Of a stretch of DNA of 64,000 nt, positions 12,300 to 17,225 are shown in pieces (within the stretch, counting starts at the first letter, position 1; each line of letters opens with the position of its first letter). The translations under genes and the position numbers were made by a program. The notes under the pieces were generated by a model. It had not been told where the DNA came from. It searched no databases and saw only the letters and a list, made by a program, of their open reading frames with translations. Source of the stretch: Catellatospora sp. TT07R-123 (GTDB lineage: Bacteria > Actinomycetota > Actinomycetes > Mycobacteriales > Micromonosporaceae); NCBI RefSeq assembly GCF_018327705.1, contig NZ_BNEM01000001.1:4030001-4094000 (forward strand), read 5' to 3'.

Positions 12300-12372
12300 A
12301 GCCCCCTTACGGAATCGAACCGTAGACCTTCTCCTTACCATGGAGACGCTCTGCCGACTGAGCTAAGGGGGC
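12300..12372 (-). tRNA. tRNA-Thr (GGT)
   Basis: Cloverleaf of 73 nt with a perfect acceptor stem GCCCCCT/AGGGGGC, anticodon stem TCTCC/GGAGA and anticodon GGT. The discriminator is U. First of the tRNA-Thr/tRNA-Met pair upstream of rpmG. The remainder of the 486-nt gap 12014-12499 holds the rpmG promoter and otherwise nothing recognisable. Confidence 0.95.
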
Positions 12373-12499
12373 GTGCTCGCTGCCTGGTGGTTTCCCACCT
12401 CGCCGCGCGCCTTGGTAAGAGTACACAACATCGGGCCCTGGCGGAAATCGGGTTCGGTGTGGCGCGCCACAACCTTGCCGCGGCATCCGGCGGACGGCC

Positions 12500-15022
12500 T
12501 CAGCCGACCGCGCGCAGGCGGCGCACCTCGCCCAGCGGGGTGGGCTCGGCGTCGGTCTGGGCGCCCAGCCACGCCTCCAGCCGCTCGTACGGCAGCGGCC
12601 GGCTGAACAGGAAGCCCTGGCCGATGTCGCAGCCGATCTCCTCCAGCAGCTCCAGCGTCAGCTCGCTCTCGACACCCTCGGCCACCACGGTCAGCCCGAA
12701 GTGCCGCGAGATGTCCACCACGGCCCGCACTATCGCCAGATCGCCCGGGTCGGTCGCCATGCCCTGCACGAACGAGCGGTCCACCTTCACCTCGTGCACC
12801 GGCAGCCGCCGCAGGTACGACAGCGACGAGTAGCCGGTGCCGAAGTCGTCCACGGACAGGTGCACGCCCAGGTCGTACAGGCGGCGCAGGGTGGGCAGCA
12901 GGCGGTCGACGCCGTCGACCACCCCGTCCTCGGTGATCTCCAGCGTCAGCCGGTCGGGCGATACGCCGTACTCCTGGAGCAGATCGTCGACGCGCTGCGG
13001 GAACGACGGGTCGACCAGGGTGCGCGGGGACAGGTTCACCGCCACCGACAGCGGCCGTCCGGCGTCCACCCACTGCCGCGCCCGGCGCAGGCCCTCGCGC
13101 AGCACCACGTCGGTCAGGCGGGACAGCTGGCCGGTGTGCTCGGCCACCGCGACGAAGTCCTCGGGCGCGACCGCGCCGTGGGTCGGGTGCTCCCAGCGGG
13201 CCAGGCACTCCACCCCGACCAGGCGCCGGTCCCGCAGCGACACCTTGGGCTGGAAGAAGACCTCCAGCTCGCCGTTGTCCAGGGCGCGGCGCAGGTCGCC
13301 GGCCAGGCCCACCCGCCGCATCGACCGCGACTCCAGCCCGACGTCGAACAGCTGCACGCCGCTGGCCAGGCCCTTGGCCGCGTGCGTCGCCACGTCGGCG
13401 CGCTGGATCAGCGTCGCCGGATCGGAGCCGTGCTCGGGATGCAGCGCGATCCCCACCGCCGTGTTGACGTCGAGGGTCAGCGAGCCGAAGGTCATCGGGT
13501 CCTGCAGCAGGCTCCGCAGCTCGGTCGCCAGGTCGACGGCGGCCTCGGCGTGGGGCAGGCGCAGGGTGACGACGAACTCGTCGCCGCCGGAGCGGCCCAC
13601 CAGGGCCGCGGGCGGCGCCAGCGTGCGCAGCCGGGTGGCCACCTCGGCCAGCAGCTGGTCTCCCGCGGCGTGGCCGAGCGAGTCGTTGACGTCGCGCAAC
13701 CCGTCCACGTCGAACATCAGCAGGGCCACGACCTCGCCGGGAGCGCGGACCCGCACCGCCTCCTCCAGCGCCTGGGTCACCCGGCGCCGGTTGGGCAGGG
13801 CGGTCAGCGCGTCGTGGTAGGCGTCGTAGCGCAGCCGGTCGACCAGGCGGTTGTTCTCCACCGCCACCGCCGCGTGCGCGGCGACCGACTCCAGCAGCCG
13901 CACGTCGGCCGGGCCGAAGTGCATGTTGTCGCCGAGGCGGCCCGCGACCTCCAGCGTTCCGATCACCGCGGAGCTGGCCCGCAGCGGCACCACGATCGCG
14001 TCCTTGACGCTGGACTCGCGCAGCTCCGCGCGGAGCTGGTCGTCGCCGAGCTTGGCACCGCCGGCGACGGTCCGCCCCGTGCCGACCGCCTGCTTGCGCA
14101 TCGAGTCCGGCGCGCCGGCGACGTCGAGCAGGCCCTTGTCGTCGGGCCGCGCGCTGAGCAGCAGTTCGGGGTGGCGCCCCTGCGCGGGCAGCCACAGCGT
14201 CGCGTACTCGGCCTGGAGCAGCTGCCGGACCCGCGCGAGCAGGACGTCGGGCAGGGTGCCGTCGTGCGGGGTGTCGGAGATGGCGCCGGTCAGGTCGTAG
14301 ATCTCGGTCAGCGTGCGGTGCTGGTTCATCGACCGGTTGTACGACCGGTATGCCAGGGCGAAGCAGACGATCAGGACCGCCATCAGGATGATCGCGCCGA
14401 TGCCCTGCTGTAGCAGCAGAAGGACCGCGAGCCCGACGGCGGTGTTGATGCCGGCCATGACGACGCCGGGCACCGCCGCGGCGAGTTCCTGCGGCGCGAA
14501 CCTTCCCTGCACGAGGGTGATCACGCTGACCACGCTGACGAGCGAGACCAGCACGCTCACCATCACCGCGACGACCAGCACCAGCCAGCTGCGCGGATCT
14601 TCGAGGTCGATCGGGCCGCCGATCAGCACCAGCAGGCTGGCGGCCGCGGTGCCCAGCGACATGACCGCGACGTTGAACGCCGCCTTGACCGGGGCGACCT
14701 TGCGCCGCCACTGCACGATGCACTGCACCGCGATGCGGGTCAGCAGCAGCGGCACCGGGGGCAGGTAGAAGAGCCCGAGGAGGAATGGGATCTCGGCGAG
14801 GGTGAGGAAGAACCCGTGCCGCCGGACCTCGAACTGGAGGACGGTCGTCTCCGCGCCGACCCACAGGGCGAAGAAGAGCGGGATCAGCCACCAGTGCGCA
14901 AGGTGTGCCGTCGAACGATTGGCGGCCAGCGCCGAGAGTCCGAGGGCCAGCACCGCTGCCGGGCCCGTGATCAACCAGGCCAGTTCGGCGGAGCGCCGCA
15001 CGCCTCGTTCAGCTCTGGCCAA
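12500..15022 (-). CDS. Membrane GAF-GGDEF-EAL c-di-GMP turnover protein
   Basis: Protein of 840 residues. About seven hydrophobic segments fill residues 12-230, then a GAF domain (about 245-395), a GGDEF domain with an intact GGDEF motif at 479-483, and an EAL domain (about 575-825). The motif there is ECLAR (Glu605, Leu607, Arg609), and the downstream metal and catalytic residues are present: VNLSP, EITED, DDFGTGYSSL, KVDRSF, AEGVE, GQGF. Both activities could therefore be functional. The GGDEF inhibitory RxxD site is absent (PPAA instead), so no product inhibition there. The start is TTG; a GTG seven codons later is an alternative. The N-terminus looks like an uncharacterised membrane sensor. 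The gene lies 40 nt behind the EFQWS peptide gene on the same strand. Confidence 0.88.
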   Translation of the reverse strand: MARAERGVRRSAELAWLITGPAAVLALGLSALAANRSTAHLAHWWLIPLFFALWVGAETTVLQFEVRRHGFFLTLAEIPFLLGLFYLPPVPLLLTRIAVQCIVQWRRKVAPVKAAFNVAVMSLGTAAASLLVLIGGPIDLEDPRSWLVLVVAVMVSVLVSLVSVVSVITLVQGRFAPQELAAAVPGVVMAGINTAVGLAVLLLLQQGIGAIILMAVLIVCFALAYRSYNRSMNQHRTLTEIYDLTGAISDTPHDGTLPDVLLARVRQLLQAEYATLWLPAQGRHPELLLSARPDDKGLLDVAGAPDSMRKQAVGTGRTVAGGAKLGDDQLRAELRESSVKDAIVVPLRASSAVIGTLEVAGRLGDNMHFGPADVRLLESVAAHAAVAVENNRLVDRLRYDAYHDALTALPNRRRVTQALEEAVRVRAPGEVVALLMFDVDGLRDVNDSLGHAAGDQLLAEVATRLRTLAPPAALVGRSGGDEFVVTLRLPHAEAAVDLATELRSLLQDPMTFGSLTLDVNTAVGIALHPEHGSDPATLIQRADVATHAAKGLASGVQLFDVGLESRSMRRVGLAGDLRRALDNGELEVFFQPKVSLRDRRLVGVECLARWEHPTHGAVAPEDFVAVAEHTGQLSRLTDVVLREGLRRARQWVDAGRPLSVAVNLSPRTLVDPSFPQRVDDLLQEYGVSPDRLTLEITEDGVVDGVDRLLPTLRRLYDLGVHLSVDDFGTGYSSLSYLRRLPVHEVKVDRSFVQGMATDPGDLAIVRAVVDISRHFGLTVVAEGVESELTLELLEEIGCDIGQGFLFSRPLPYERLEAWLGAQTDAEPTPLGEVRRLRAVG

Positions 15023-15062
15023 CGCCGTTGGTCCGCTCTCTAGGGGGCTGACCGGCTACCGG

Positions 15063-15299
15063 TCAGCTCCACTGAAATTCGGCTTCTTCACGGCCCGTCA
15101 GCGCCGTGGCACCCGCGGTGTCGTCACCGCTGGGCAGAGAGCTCCACTGGAACTCGTCCGGAAGGACGGTCTCACCGGCGCTCCACTGGAACTCCTGCGC
15201 CGACATCGTCGGCTCTGCGACACCACCCAGCACGGTTCCCAGCGCCACGATGAGCGCGCCGCTGCCCATCCACCGGGCAAGCTTGCTCGTTCGCATCAT
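15063..15299 (-). CDS. Small exported-looking peptide with three EFQWS repeats
   Basis: A 78-residue protein of unrecognised family. Basic N-terminus (RTSKLAR), one hydrophobic stretch at about residues 10-28, then a hydrophilic tail with EFQWS at 36-40, 49-53 and 74-78, the last being the C-terminus. The third copy uses GAA-TTT where the others use GAG-TTC, a synonymous difference that argues for selection on the peptide. GGAG lies 3 nt before the first of two adjacent ATGs and 6 nt before the second, so translation may start at 15296. Right behind the gene is a 7-bp hairpin (15049-15065) that includes its stop codon, then the membrane GGDEF-EAL gene 40 nt on, suggesting co-transcription. 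It may be a signal-peptide-bearing precursor or a single-pass membrane peptide. Confidence 0.7.
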   Translation of the reverse strand: MMRTSKLARWMGSGALIVALGTVLGGVAEPTMSAQEFQWSAGETVLPDEFQWSSLPSGDDTAGATALTGREEAEFQWS

Positions 15300-15405
15300 C
15301 GACTCCACGGGTGACAGAGGAAAACCAGGGGCTGTCAAGGATCGTGCCACAGGTTCCGGCACAAGAGGAAGCCCGCATGGCGTGCCACGCCGCGGTCCGA
15401 CCAAT

Positions 15406-15498
15406 TTATAGCCGTTCGGTGAGGACGGGCTGGACCGGCCGCAGCGGCAGCTCACCCTCAGGAATGCGGAACCACACTGTACGTCCCCCGGCGCCGTC
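15406..15498 (-). pseudogene. Possible remnant of a histidine kinase ATPase C-terminus
   Basis: About 30 codons ending in TAA read GAGGRTVWFRIPEGE and then a proline-rich tail. The pattern GGxxxWFxIP is what the last strand of a GHKL-type kinase or ATPase domain looks like. Nothing upstream in frame continues the domain: the reading frame runs instead across the LexA-boxed promoter of the opposite-strand gene. This may be the leftover 3' end of a deleted kinase gene next to the peptide gene. The match is short, so this is tentative. Confidence 0.3.
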
Positions 15499-15508
15499 AA
15501 GACAGTCC

Positions 15509-15536
15509 TTGCCTGCTGTTCGAACGTGTGTACGAT
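15509..15536 (+). promoter_or_regulatory. Promoter overlapped by a LexA-like (SOS) box
   Basis: TCGAAC-N4-GTACGA at 15520-15535 matches 11 of the 12 fixed bases of the actinobacterial SOS box TCGAAC-N4-GTTCGA. It overlaps a promoter: TTGCCT (15509-15514), a 16-nt spacer, TACGAT (15531-15536). The ATG follows 6 nt after the -10 element, so the mRNA would be leaderless. The box covers the spacer and -10, where LexA would block polymerase. Sequence match only. Confidence 0.55.
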
Positions 15537-15542
15537 ACCGCC

Positions 15543-15764
15543 ATGATGCGTCTGGTCGAGCACCGATGGAACGGCACCACCACCAGCTATGCACGTCAGG
15601 ACGTGTTCCTGCGCGCGAACCCGGCCGGGCCCTGGGAGGTCGAGCACCGCCAGCACGGCAGGTCCATCATGCGGGAGTACGCCACCGAGGGCGAGGCGCG
15701 CCGGGTCGCCGACGGGCTGTGCGCGATCGGCCAGTGGCGCAACCTGGAGCATCTGCACCGCTGA
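15543..15764 (+). CDS. Small protein of unknown function, possibly SOS-controlled
   Basis: A 73-residue, Arg/His-rich soluble protein (MMRLVEHRWNGTTTSYARQD to GQWRNLEHLHR) that I do not recognise. No signal peptide, membrane segment or known motif. The start is placed at 15543 because a -10 hexamer (TACGAT) sits 6 nt upstream, fitting leaderless translation; a GTG at 15528 lies inside the promoter and is unlikely. The overlapping LexA-like box suggests induction by DNA damage. The predicted protein is an alternation of short strands with one helix (ATEGEARRVADGLCAI), like a small DNA- or protein-binding fold. Confidence 0.65.
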   Translation: MMRLVEHRWNGTTTSYARQDVFLRANPAGPWEVEHRQHGRSIMREYATEGEARRVADGLCAIGQWRNLEHLHR

Positions 15765-15910
15765 ACCGCCCCCGGACCCCACCGCCCCGTCCGCGAAGTT
15801 TGACCGGCCTGCACCATGGGTAGCTCGATGGCACGCTTGATACCGGGTTACCGTGTTGCGCAGCTCTGCGGGATGCGCGGCGCTGCGGGGGTTGGGTCGA
15901 GGAGGGACCG

Positions 15911-16780
15911 GTGAGCGGTACGTCCGTGGAGGAGCTCCGGCCAGGCGATCACGCCTGCCTGACCTTCTCCGACAGCGACGAGCGGCTGGACATCGTCGCC
16001 GCGTTCGTGCGCGACGGGCTGCGCGCCGGGCAGAAGGTCGTCTGCCTCACCGAGTCGCTGAGCCCGTCCGCGCTCACCGAGGAGCTGGCCCGGCGCGGCT
16101 TCGAGCCGGCCACGGCCGCCGAGACGGGACAGCTGCACATCGCGTCCGCGGGCGAGTTCTTCGTGCCGCAGGGCGTGTTCGACCCGGGCAGCGCCCTCGG
16201 CGCGGTCCGCACCCAGATCGAGCGGGCCGGCCGCGACGGCTACCAGGGCCTGCGGGTCACCAGCGACATGTGCTGGGCGCTGCGGCCGGTCGGCGGCGCG
16301 GCCGGGCTCATGGCGTACGAGTCGCAGCTGAGCCGGATGCTCGCGCAGGAGAACGCCACCGCCGTCTGCCAGTACGACCGCCAGTGCTTCGACACCGTCA
16401 CCCTGGCCACCGCGGCCGAGGCGCACGGGCGCACCGTCGCGGCGATCACCTACCACGACGACGCGCTGCTGCGGATCTGCCGCCAGCACGTGCCCACCGG
16501 GGTGCGCGTCGCCGGCGAGATCGACTACCGCGCCGCGGAGCCGCTGACCCGGGCCATGACCGAGGCGCTCGCCCTCGACGACCACATCGACGTCAACCTC
16601 ACCCGGCTCGTCTTCCTGGACACCGTCGCCGCGGGCGTGGTGGCCCAGGCGGCGGTCGGGCTCACCCCGGCCCAGCGGATGACCGTCCGCTGCCAGGGGA
16701 TGCCATACAAGATCCTCGCCGCGCTGGGTCTGCGGGACATTCCCGGCGTCACGCTGATGGCCGTCGAGCATGGTGACTGA
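15911..16780 (+). CDS. MEDS-domain and STAS-like anti-anti-sigma-type regulator
   Basis: Protein of 289 residues starting at GTG with GGAGGGA upstream. The first 190 residues fit the MEDS (DcmR sensory) domain, a RecA-like fold found in actinobacterial and methylotroph regulators (PGDHACLTFSDSDERLDIVAAFVRDGL near the N-terminus). The last 100 residues resemble a STAS domain (DDHIDVNLTRLVFLDTVAAGVV, IPGVTLM). It overlaps the RsbW-like kinase gene by 11 nt, so the two should act together: the STAS part probably binds the kinase to release a sigma factor or to control another partner. No sigma gene lies beside the pair. Confidence 0.8.
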   Translation: MSGTSVEELRPGDHACLTFSDSDERLDIVAAFVRDGLRAGQKVVCLTESLSPSALTEELARRGFEPATAAETGQLHIASAGEFFVPQGVFDPGSALGAVRTQIERAGRDGYQGLRVTSDMCWALRPVGGAAGLMAYESQLSRMLAQENATAVCQYDRQCFDTVTLATAAEAHGRTVAAITYHDDALLRICRQHVPTGVRVAGEIDYRAAEPLTRAMTEALALDDHIDVNLTRLVFLDTVAAGVVAQAAVGLTPAQRMTVRCQGMPYKILAALGLRDIPGVTLMAVEHGD

Positions 16781-17225
16781 CCGGCCCTCGCGCGACAGGC
16801 CGGGCAACACGCCGCGGCCCGGACAGCGACGGCTGCTGCTGGACCTGCCGTTCACCGAGCCGGAGCTGGTCGGGCTGCGCGCCGCCGTCGCCGCCCACGC
16901 CAGCGAGTCGGGCATGCCCGAGGAGCGGATCGACGTCCTCGTCTTCGTCGCGTACGAGCTGGCCACGAACGCGGTCCGGCACGGTGGCGGACACGGGCGG
17001 CTGCGGCTGTGGCGCGACGGCGACACCATCGCCTGCCAGGTGTCCGACCCGGGCAGCGGACCGCCCGCCGAGGCGCTGAACATCCGGCGGCCCGGCCCGG
17101 GTGCGACCGGTGGACGCGGGTTGTGGCTGGTCCGGACGTTCTCCGACAGCGTGGAGGTCGAGGTGCGCGACAGCCCCGACGGCGGGGCCGAGATCACCGC
17201 CCTGGTCCCGTACGCCGCCGAGTAG
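16770..17225 (+). CDS. RsbW-like anti-sigma factor kinase
   Basis: ATP-binding protein of 151 residues of the HATPase_c_2 type. The N-box is VAYELATNAVRHGGG, the G1 box DPGSG and the G2 box GGRGLWLV; these bind ATP and magnesium. It overlaps the upstream MEDS-STAS gene by 11 nt and is presumably its partner in a switch. The target (sigma factor or other) is not encoded nearby. The gene is followed by 290 nt of intergenic DNA with a tandem repeat and a long C/G-rich tract. Confidence 0.85.
   Translation: MVTDRPSRDRPGNTPRPGQRRLLLDLPFTEPELVGLRAAVAAHASESGMPEERIDVLVFVAYELATNAVRHGGGHGRLRLWRDGDTIACQVSDPGSGPPAEALNIRRPGPGATGGRGLWLVRTFSDSVEVEVRDSPDGGAEITALVPYAAE

Follow-up and report, generated by a model that had tools for sequence, protein, structure and literature searches.

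What joins a short, exported-looking repeat peptide to the membrane protein of cyclic di-GMP (c-di-GMP) turnover encoded just behind it? The question arises in a window of 64,000 nucleotides (nt), the whole stretch analyzed here, from the actinobacterium Catellatospora sp. TT07R-123 (contig NZ_BNEM01000001.1), where an open reading frame (ORF) of 78 codons with three EFQWS motifs precedes a gene for a GGDEF-EAL protein. The recurrence of this pair suggests a peptide-sensing system not described so far. From the sequences, we give about equal weight to its being, or not being, a cognate ligand-receptor pair in which the tryptophan (W) motif of the peptide docks in the sensor of the GGDEF-EAL protein.

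The Peptide Gene and the Receptor Gene

The features of the locus are as follows (window positions, all on the minus strand).
15303..15306, minus strand: Shine-Dalgarno-like GGAG before the peptide start, at equal distance in three compared relatives
15063..15299, minus strand: W-tail peptide gene, 78 amino acids; an ORF, with orthologous receptors preceded by a small ORF in the equivalent place
15180..15194, minus strand: EFQWS copy 1, residues 36-40, a short way past the hydrophobic segment
15141..15155, minus strand: EFQWS copy 2, residues 49-53
15066..15080, minus strand: EFQWS copy 3, residues 74-78, the exact C-terminus
12500..15022, minus strand: receptor gene, membrane sensor-GAF-GGDEF-EAL, 840 amino acids, TTG start
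14273..15022, minus strand: membrane sensor domain, residues 1-250, predicted S-component fold of energy-coupling factor (ECF) transporters, short loops only
13859..14245, minus strand: GAF domain, residues 260-388, domain match
13373..13822, minus strand: GGDEF domain, residues 401-550, domain match
12596..13297, minus strand: EAL domain, residues 576-809, domain match

The original prediction had described a 78-residue ORF with a basic N-terminus, one hydrophobic stretch and three EFQWS motifs. All of this is read again from the sequence, with the refinement that the true start is probably the second ATG (15294-15296, 77 residues), a choice favored because only one ATG stands at this spacing from the GGAG in the compared relatives. 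The codons also agree with the claim that the third copy differs synonymously only (GAA TTT CAG TGG AGC against GAG TTC CAG TGG AGC in copies 1 and 2), and coordinates and domain matches uphold the 40-nt gap between the peptide stop and the same-strand membrane GAF-GGDEF-EAL gene. Across the 9.17-Mb genome GARTTYCARTGGWS occurs at the three EFQWS sites and nowhere else, the reversed-pattern control giving two matches. Neither Pfam nor NCBIfam has a match to the peptide at E values up to 1, and PLSDB plasmids queried with it returned chance matches only. A scan of positions 12300 to 16000 revealed neither a sigma-70-like promoter nor a terminator-like site, a result of little weight for an actinobacterium, while Rfam gave no riboswitch there and a transfer RNA as its sole match. 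A near-perfect palindrome, GACCGGTAGCCGGTC (15050-15064), overlaps the peptide stop codon and extends into the 40-nt gap.

Recurrence Within Micromonosporaceae

The sensor has one match in each of the 11 Catellatospora genomes, the window's own included (E up to 1e-5), and is matched in 352 of 354 Micromonosporaceae genomes (E up to 1e-8). Among named genomes the nearest were eight of Catellatospora, including C. sichuanensis, C. coxensis, C. vulcania, C. bangladeshensis, C. methionotrophica, C. paridis, and C. tritici. All 30 best orthologs, the window's among them, are preceded by a small ORF whose product ends with W and one further residue. At 47 named Micromonosporaceae loci, a set overlapping with these 30, the orthologous GGDEF-EAL gene was in every case closely preceded by a small signal-peptide-like ORF with a W motif: a search for the W-plus-one-residue ending recovered it at 29, and a search for a ribosome-binding site and a hydrophobic N-terminus recovered it, with an internal W motif, at all of the other 18. 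A test blind to W returned an ORF at 45 of the same 47 loci, and all 45 products have a W beyond residue 28; elsewhere in those loci it picked up three similar ORFs only, one of them with a W. When 20 extra loci from 14 other genera were put to the W-blind test, 18 ORFs were obtained, all with the motif (L and G numbers denote loci and genomes; L349 of this set and the named L129 are one contig). The two misses are L341, which has a W tail lacking a clear ribosome-binding site, and L337, where the ORF was not called.

The W Motif and Its Copies

Motifs found in these peptides include, besides EFQWS, SVDWT, TVDWT, TIEWA, SLEWG, SVEWN, DFTWG, DYSWG, EWQWD, DFSWH, EFEWN, and DVVWG. The original prediction had named the lack of a conserved EFQWS in related genomes as grounds for giving it up, and that lack is literally what we find: none of the relatives' peptides compared carries EFQWS, and the candidate statement that EFQWS is conserved was rejected. 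Conservation of EFQWS is, however, the wrong thing to ask for. The features that persist are the position, the tryptophan, and the agreement among the copies of one peptide, which are alike within a peptide and unlike between species.

This agreement was measured in peptides having two or more W past residue 25, of which 15 were collected and 12 used after removal of three near-duplicates. With the W left out, the identity between an internal motif and the peptide's own tail is 0.783, against 0.193 when tails are shuffled among peptides (P about 5e-5), and so the repeat is not due to chance; near-identical copies within a precursor are also what multi-copy pheromones display. Since synonymous differences are common between the copies of one peptide (copies 1 and 2 of the window being identical), recent DNA duplication alone does not explain their likeness. 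For eight pairs of close species, the pooled synonymous (pS) and nonsynonymous (pN) proportions beyond residue 28 are 0.22 and 0.076, and the whole-peptide ratio exceeds 1 in two of the eight, both with few changes.

A spurious ORF with chance repeats might be suspected from the G+C content at third codon positions, which at 0.79 in the peptide gene is below the 0.96 of the receptor gene. Nevertheless, a ribosome-site-like start, position, and motif that all recur, together with synonymous sites that differ more than the others between copies and between species (pooled counts), render this explanation exceedingly improbable.

The Sensor Domain of the Receptor

The sensor part has no Pfam match of its own above the cut-off. 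Its predicted fold matches the S components of ECF transporters, which bind small ligands, and on this model the window protein would be counted among the S-component-fold receptors; CbiM/NikM-type structures match the modeled sensor as well. Further along the protein the motifs SGGDEF, ECLAR, DDFGTGYS, EVKVD, and AEGVE are all present, so that both enzyme domains have their catalytic motifs, as bifunctional GGDEF-EAL enzymes do. PF07694 (5TMR) is not among the matches of the window protein at E values up to 1, where the HMMER filters lose most weak matches; PF20972 (MASE9) has no match in the window protein and, at E 0.001, none in the window genome. In hhalign, by comparison, the window sensor aligns to the MASE9-like domain of HD-GYP relatives at 95 % (E 3.4e-8), and PF20972 is matched by five of nine such relatives (E up to 0.1). 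A plasmid search with a non-family receptor yielded EAL proteins and unannotated places, all below 60 % identity.

Subtilase Arrays and Histidine Kinases Outside the Family

A class-level search of 394 genomes (E up to 1e-6) located the sensor in 48, three of them from the window's own family, and a phylum-level search of 296 genomes (E up to 1e-5) located it in 72. From the class set, 80 of the 92 non-family matches were fetched and 79 analyzed (L220 came without upstream sequence), 74 of these with at least 900 nt upstream. The phylum set comprises 27 of 30 returned loci, since three were dropped (the own genome, another of the family, and a repeat), and a third set of 15 more phylum loci was chosen mostly by a histidine-kinase-sized reading frame. 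To all of these a uniform rule was applied, namely a same-strand ORF that carries three or more identical W-containing 4-mers and ends at most 900 nt upstream. Such an ORF accompanies 61 of the 116 non-family receptors (39/74 in the class set, 12/27 in the phylum set, and 10/15 in the third), while elsewhere in about 711 kb of those loci the rule picked out three ORFs on the same strand and nine on the other. The check that the original prediction itself proposed, recurrence of the pairing, thus comes out in its favor, both here and at the 47 family loci.

The array units outside the family include GAGWR, SSWRG, LRWNG, LTWRG, GSQWS, GATWS, and GANWY. The usual partner here is a subtilase with a W-repeat tail: the S8 signature occurs in 50 of 63 adjacent W-repeat ORFs, all ten long W-repeat proteins tested are Peptidase_S8 members with the array at the C-terminus, and the GHGT and GTS motifs are kept in all six partners inspected for them, and one partner aligned to solved subtilisins. 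Small-peptide partners occur too, with GTGWH x4 (L098), AGASWN x3 (L191), AGTSWH x3 (L203), and AASIWN x3 (L201); in L324, EVRWN x5 forms an array running to the C-terminus. Overall, the number of motif copies ranges from one to 25. Where one genome has paralogous receptors their repeats often differ (G417, G399, G446), and in G423 two loci share ATWSG. Membership in the GETHR pentapeptide repeats was tried and dropped, the matches being weak and confined to two W-tails.

Subtilases with C-terminal W-pentapeptide arrays stand beside sensor genes among L094-L109, L168-L218, and L222-L250, and these arrays might form a stacked structure. In L198, some 3.3 kb away from the receptor match, the other strand has an ORF of 1009 residues rich in W repeats.

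The output of these receptors also changes. In the third set a histidine-kinase H-box was recognized by pattern in 14 of 15 receptors, including all ten with a W-repeat partner, and HisKA plus HATPase_c in all nine tested; L222 is one more histidine-kinase receptor.

The abundance of subtilases brings up a control from the inside out, in the manner of LapD and LapG, by which the receptor would hold or release an extracellular subtilase through its W tail, the small peptides being remnants of the handle. The S8 signatures and preserved catalytic motifs above, and the membrane GGDEF-EAL architecture of the window receptor, are in line with such a control. On the other hand, the Micromonosporaceae peptides and the HD-GYP micropeptides described below are too small for holding a protease, histidine-kinase receptors with the same sensor indicate signaling from the outside in, and the GGDEF and EAL motifs of the window receptor are intact, unlike those of LapD. 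We therefore judge the inside-out arrangement improbable.

Micropeptides Beside HD-GYP Receptors

A search of 197 class genomes for HD-GYP proteins with a related domain gave 65 matches in 64 of them, and 63 of the 65 loci were examined, leaving out G420 and one of two G471 matches. By eye, a micropeptide with a W tail lies upstream of the HD-GYP gene at 28 of 30 loci outside family f21 (L251-L280, except L263 and L279) and at 19 of 20 in a further set (L291-L310, except L310), hence at 47 of 50 in total, with lengths of about 9-35 residues; examples are MKKIVSAVEQFLQSGANWRW, MFKMLLEPGVSWR, MFASMFVAAMYGVFMASAFTGWTWW, and MREENWKWG. At the 13 loci of family f21 no micropeptide was seen, whether by eye or with a strict automatic rule, the latter finding one at 32 of the 50 other loci. 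In control scans the strict rule was satisfied at two of the 50 in the next stretch upstream and at none on the other strand. A loose rule, which accepts a W at most four residues from any ORF end and requires neither a start nor a ribosome site, was satisfied at 48 of the 50 and at six of the 13 f21 loci, and alone separates the groups poorly; the six look like chance frames and were left uncounted. For partial matches (L270, L276, L310-L313) the scan began at the projected gene start. Because f21 has none while the other HD-GYP loci have 47 of 50 by eye, the micropeptide is not a by-product of the scan.

The W partner thus goes with the sensor domain and not with c-di-GMP as such, because it also stands beside histidine-kinase and HD-GYP receptors. 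Accordingly, of the original proposal that a short exported-looking peptide is paired with a membrane c-di-GMP enzyme, the pairing has strong support from its recurrence, and it extends to other outputs.

Many HD-GYP micropeptides consist of one helix-like stretch and a W tail, with no cleavable signal evident, and the main rival to a ligand is accordingly a subunit that does not diffuse: a membrane-anchored peptide whose W tail belongs permanently to the sensor complex and sets its assembly or gating. CbiN, with CbiM, is a small membrane subunit of an S component, and the match of CbiM/NikM-type structures to the sensor is in line with such a role, as is the sufficiency of a single motif copy in many Micromonosporaceae. 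Long subtilase arrays and multiple near-identical copies, in contrast, are hard to fit to a one-to-one subunit, and several Catellatospora peptides have, by eye, AxA-like sites ahead of the motif. Taken together, a fixed subunit seems to us unlikely, though it deserves more credit than the other alternatives.

A Model of the Peptide-Sensor Pair

The gene pair, its recurrence, the motif, the homogeneity of its copies within a protein, and the predicted fold are read from the sequences themselves; from them we infer export, processing, binding, and the direction of effect, that is, a peptide that is secreted, cut, and sensed. The pre-peptide would be exported by means of its N-terminal hydrophobic segment and would display or release short pieces ending in the W motif (here EFQWS, in three copies), the repeats raising the number of ligands per precursor. 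The motif would dock from outside into a pocket of the S-component-like membrane domain, and docking would alter the activity of the GAF-GGDEF-EAL protein and so the level of c-di-GMP. Other actinobacteria carry a motif of this kind in long C-terminal arrays on a secreted-type subtilase or on micropeptides about 9-35 residues long, with histidine-kinase or HD-GYP domains as alternative outputs of the receptor. We take the W motif as the ligand, or docking part, because it is co-inherited with the sensor across three outputs, because the motifs of paralogous pairs are often private, because copies stay alike within a precursor, and because the predicted fold suits binding from outside. Somewhat more tentatively than for the pair itself, we put forward a phylum-wide actinobacterial system, in which W-motif ligands encoded upstream would be caught by S-component-fold sensors and relayed as c-di-GMP turnover or kinase activity. 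Its ligand carriers would be the micropeptides, the small exported repeat peptides, and the subtilase tails with up to 20 or more repeats.

Several observations weigh against a ligand and its receptor or are at best neutral: 55 of the 116 non-family receptors lack an ORF satisfying the W-repeat rule; L110 and L113 have, directly upstream, exported-looking peptides with GASLT or SGSSL pentapeptide repeats and no W; the f21 loci have no micropeptide; many HD-GYP micropeptides have no obvious signal peptide; and a mirror-tree test of coevolution between motif and sensor was not significant. The mirror-tree result would also fit mere co-regulation, in which a surface or matrix protein with W repeats happens to share an operon with a regulator, and it is indeed by position that the two are linked. 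Yet one sensor domain keeps its partner across three output types, and the split between f21 and the other HD-GYP loci, by eye and by the strict rule alike, shows that the partner is no by-product of the scan; co-regulation alone is in our view a poor candidate, somewhat behind the inside-out arrangement.

Neighboring Genes

Upstream of the peptide gene, a divergent ORF of 78 codons (15528-15764, plus strand) has similar letters beside the peptide gene of L021 and may, judging by this similarity, be a conserved neighbor. It is followed by two consecutive ORFs (15911-17225, plus strand), whose products resemble a MEDS-domain protein and an anti-sigma-type ATPase.

Relation to Known Systems and Significance

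Peptide pairs and S-component receptors are known separately, and what appears to be new is their combination. ComR is a cytosolic transcription regulator. Its partner in streptococci, ComS/XIP, is encoded by a small ORF beside the receptor gene, has a C-terminal active part with a W motif, and varies between species with the receptors matching, according to the part of PMC5131902 available to us. The precursor gene adjoining the receptor gene and the variation between species are found here too. A W motif stands at the C-terminus of the window peptide and is internal at 18 of the 47 named loci. The pair nevertheless falls outside ComS/XIP, because a polytopic membrane sensor, with its output through c-di-GMP or a kinase, takes the place of a cytosolic receptor of the Rgg/RNPP type; the copies may, moreover, be repeated or fused to subtilases.

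Yeast precursors of the alpha-factor type contain several near-identical pheromone copies that vary between species, a likeness to the present peptides, which differ in having one to 25 copies, often on a protease, and whose cleavage into single copies is putative. LapD-LapG likewise joins a membrane GGDEF-EAL protein, its GGDEF and EAL sites degenerate in LapD, to a protease, and in some of our loci a protease gene does lie beside such a protein; here the sensor is another, the protease belongs to class S8, the catalytic motifs are not degenerate, and there are W tails. We know of no ligand for MASE9, the domain carried by HD-GYP relatives whose domain aligns to the window sensor, and by name it was not found in the open-licence literature. 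The 5TMR sensor kinases have an S-component-like membrane sensor domain with histidine-kinase, GGDEF, or EAL outputs (PMC11109136, as far as accessible), a likeness to the window receptor with its predicted fold and GGDEF/EAL output; a peptide partner sets the present system apart, none being mentioned in the accessible part of that paper. In the open-licence papers searched we found no description of the peptide-sensor pair, nor of the combination, the subtilase arrays, or the breadth. On the modeled fold, the receptors form a new S-component-fold group with a genetically encoded partner.

To our knowledge, the signal is still missing for many membrane c-di-GMP enzymes. MASE1, for instance, is listed among sensory domains without discernible purpose in the part of PMC8846402 available to us. 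With a genetically encoded partner beside the sensor, synthetic five-residue peptides can serve to test the input, and one partner shared by three output types would reveal what the sensor domain recognizes. If the proposed pairing is true, peptide communication would be added to the biology of actinobacteria by way of genes about 9 to 100 codons long, easily overlooked in annotation, and the private motifs of paralogous pairs would provide several parallel channels of self-recognition or quorum sensing within one genome.
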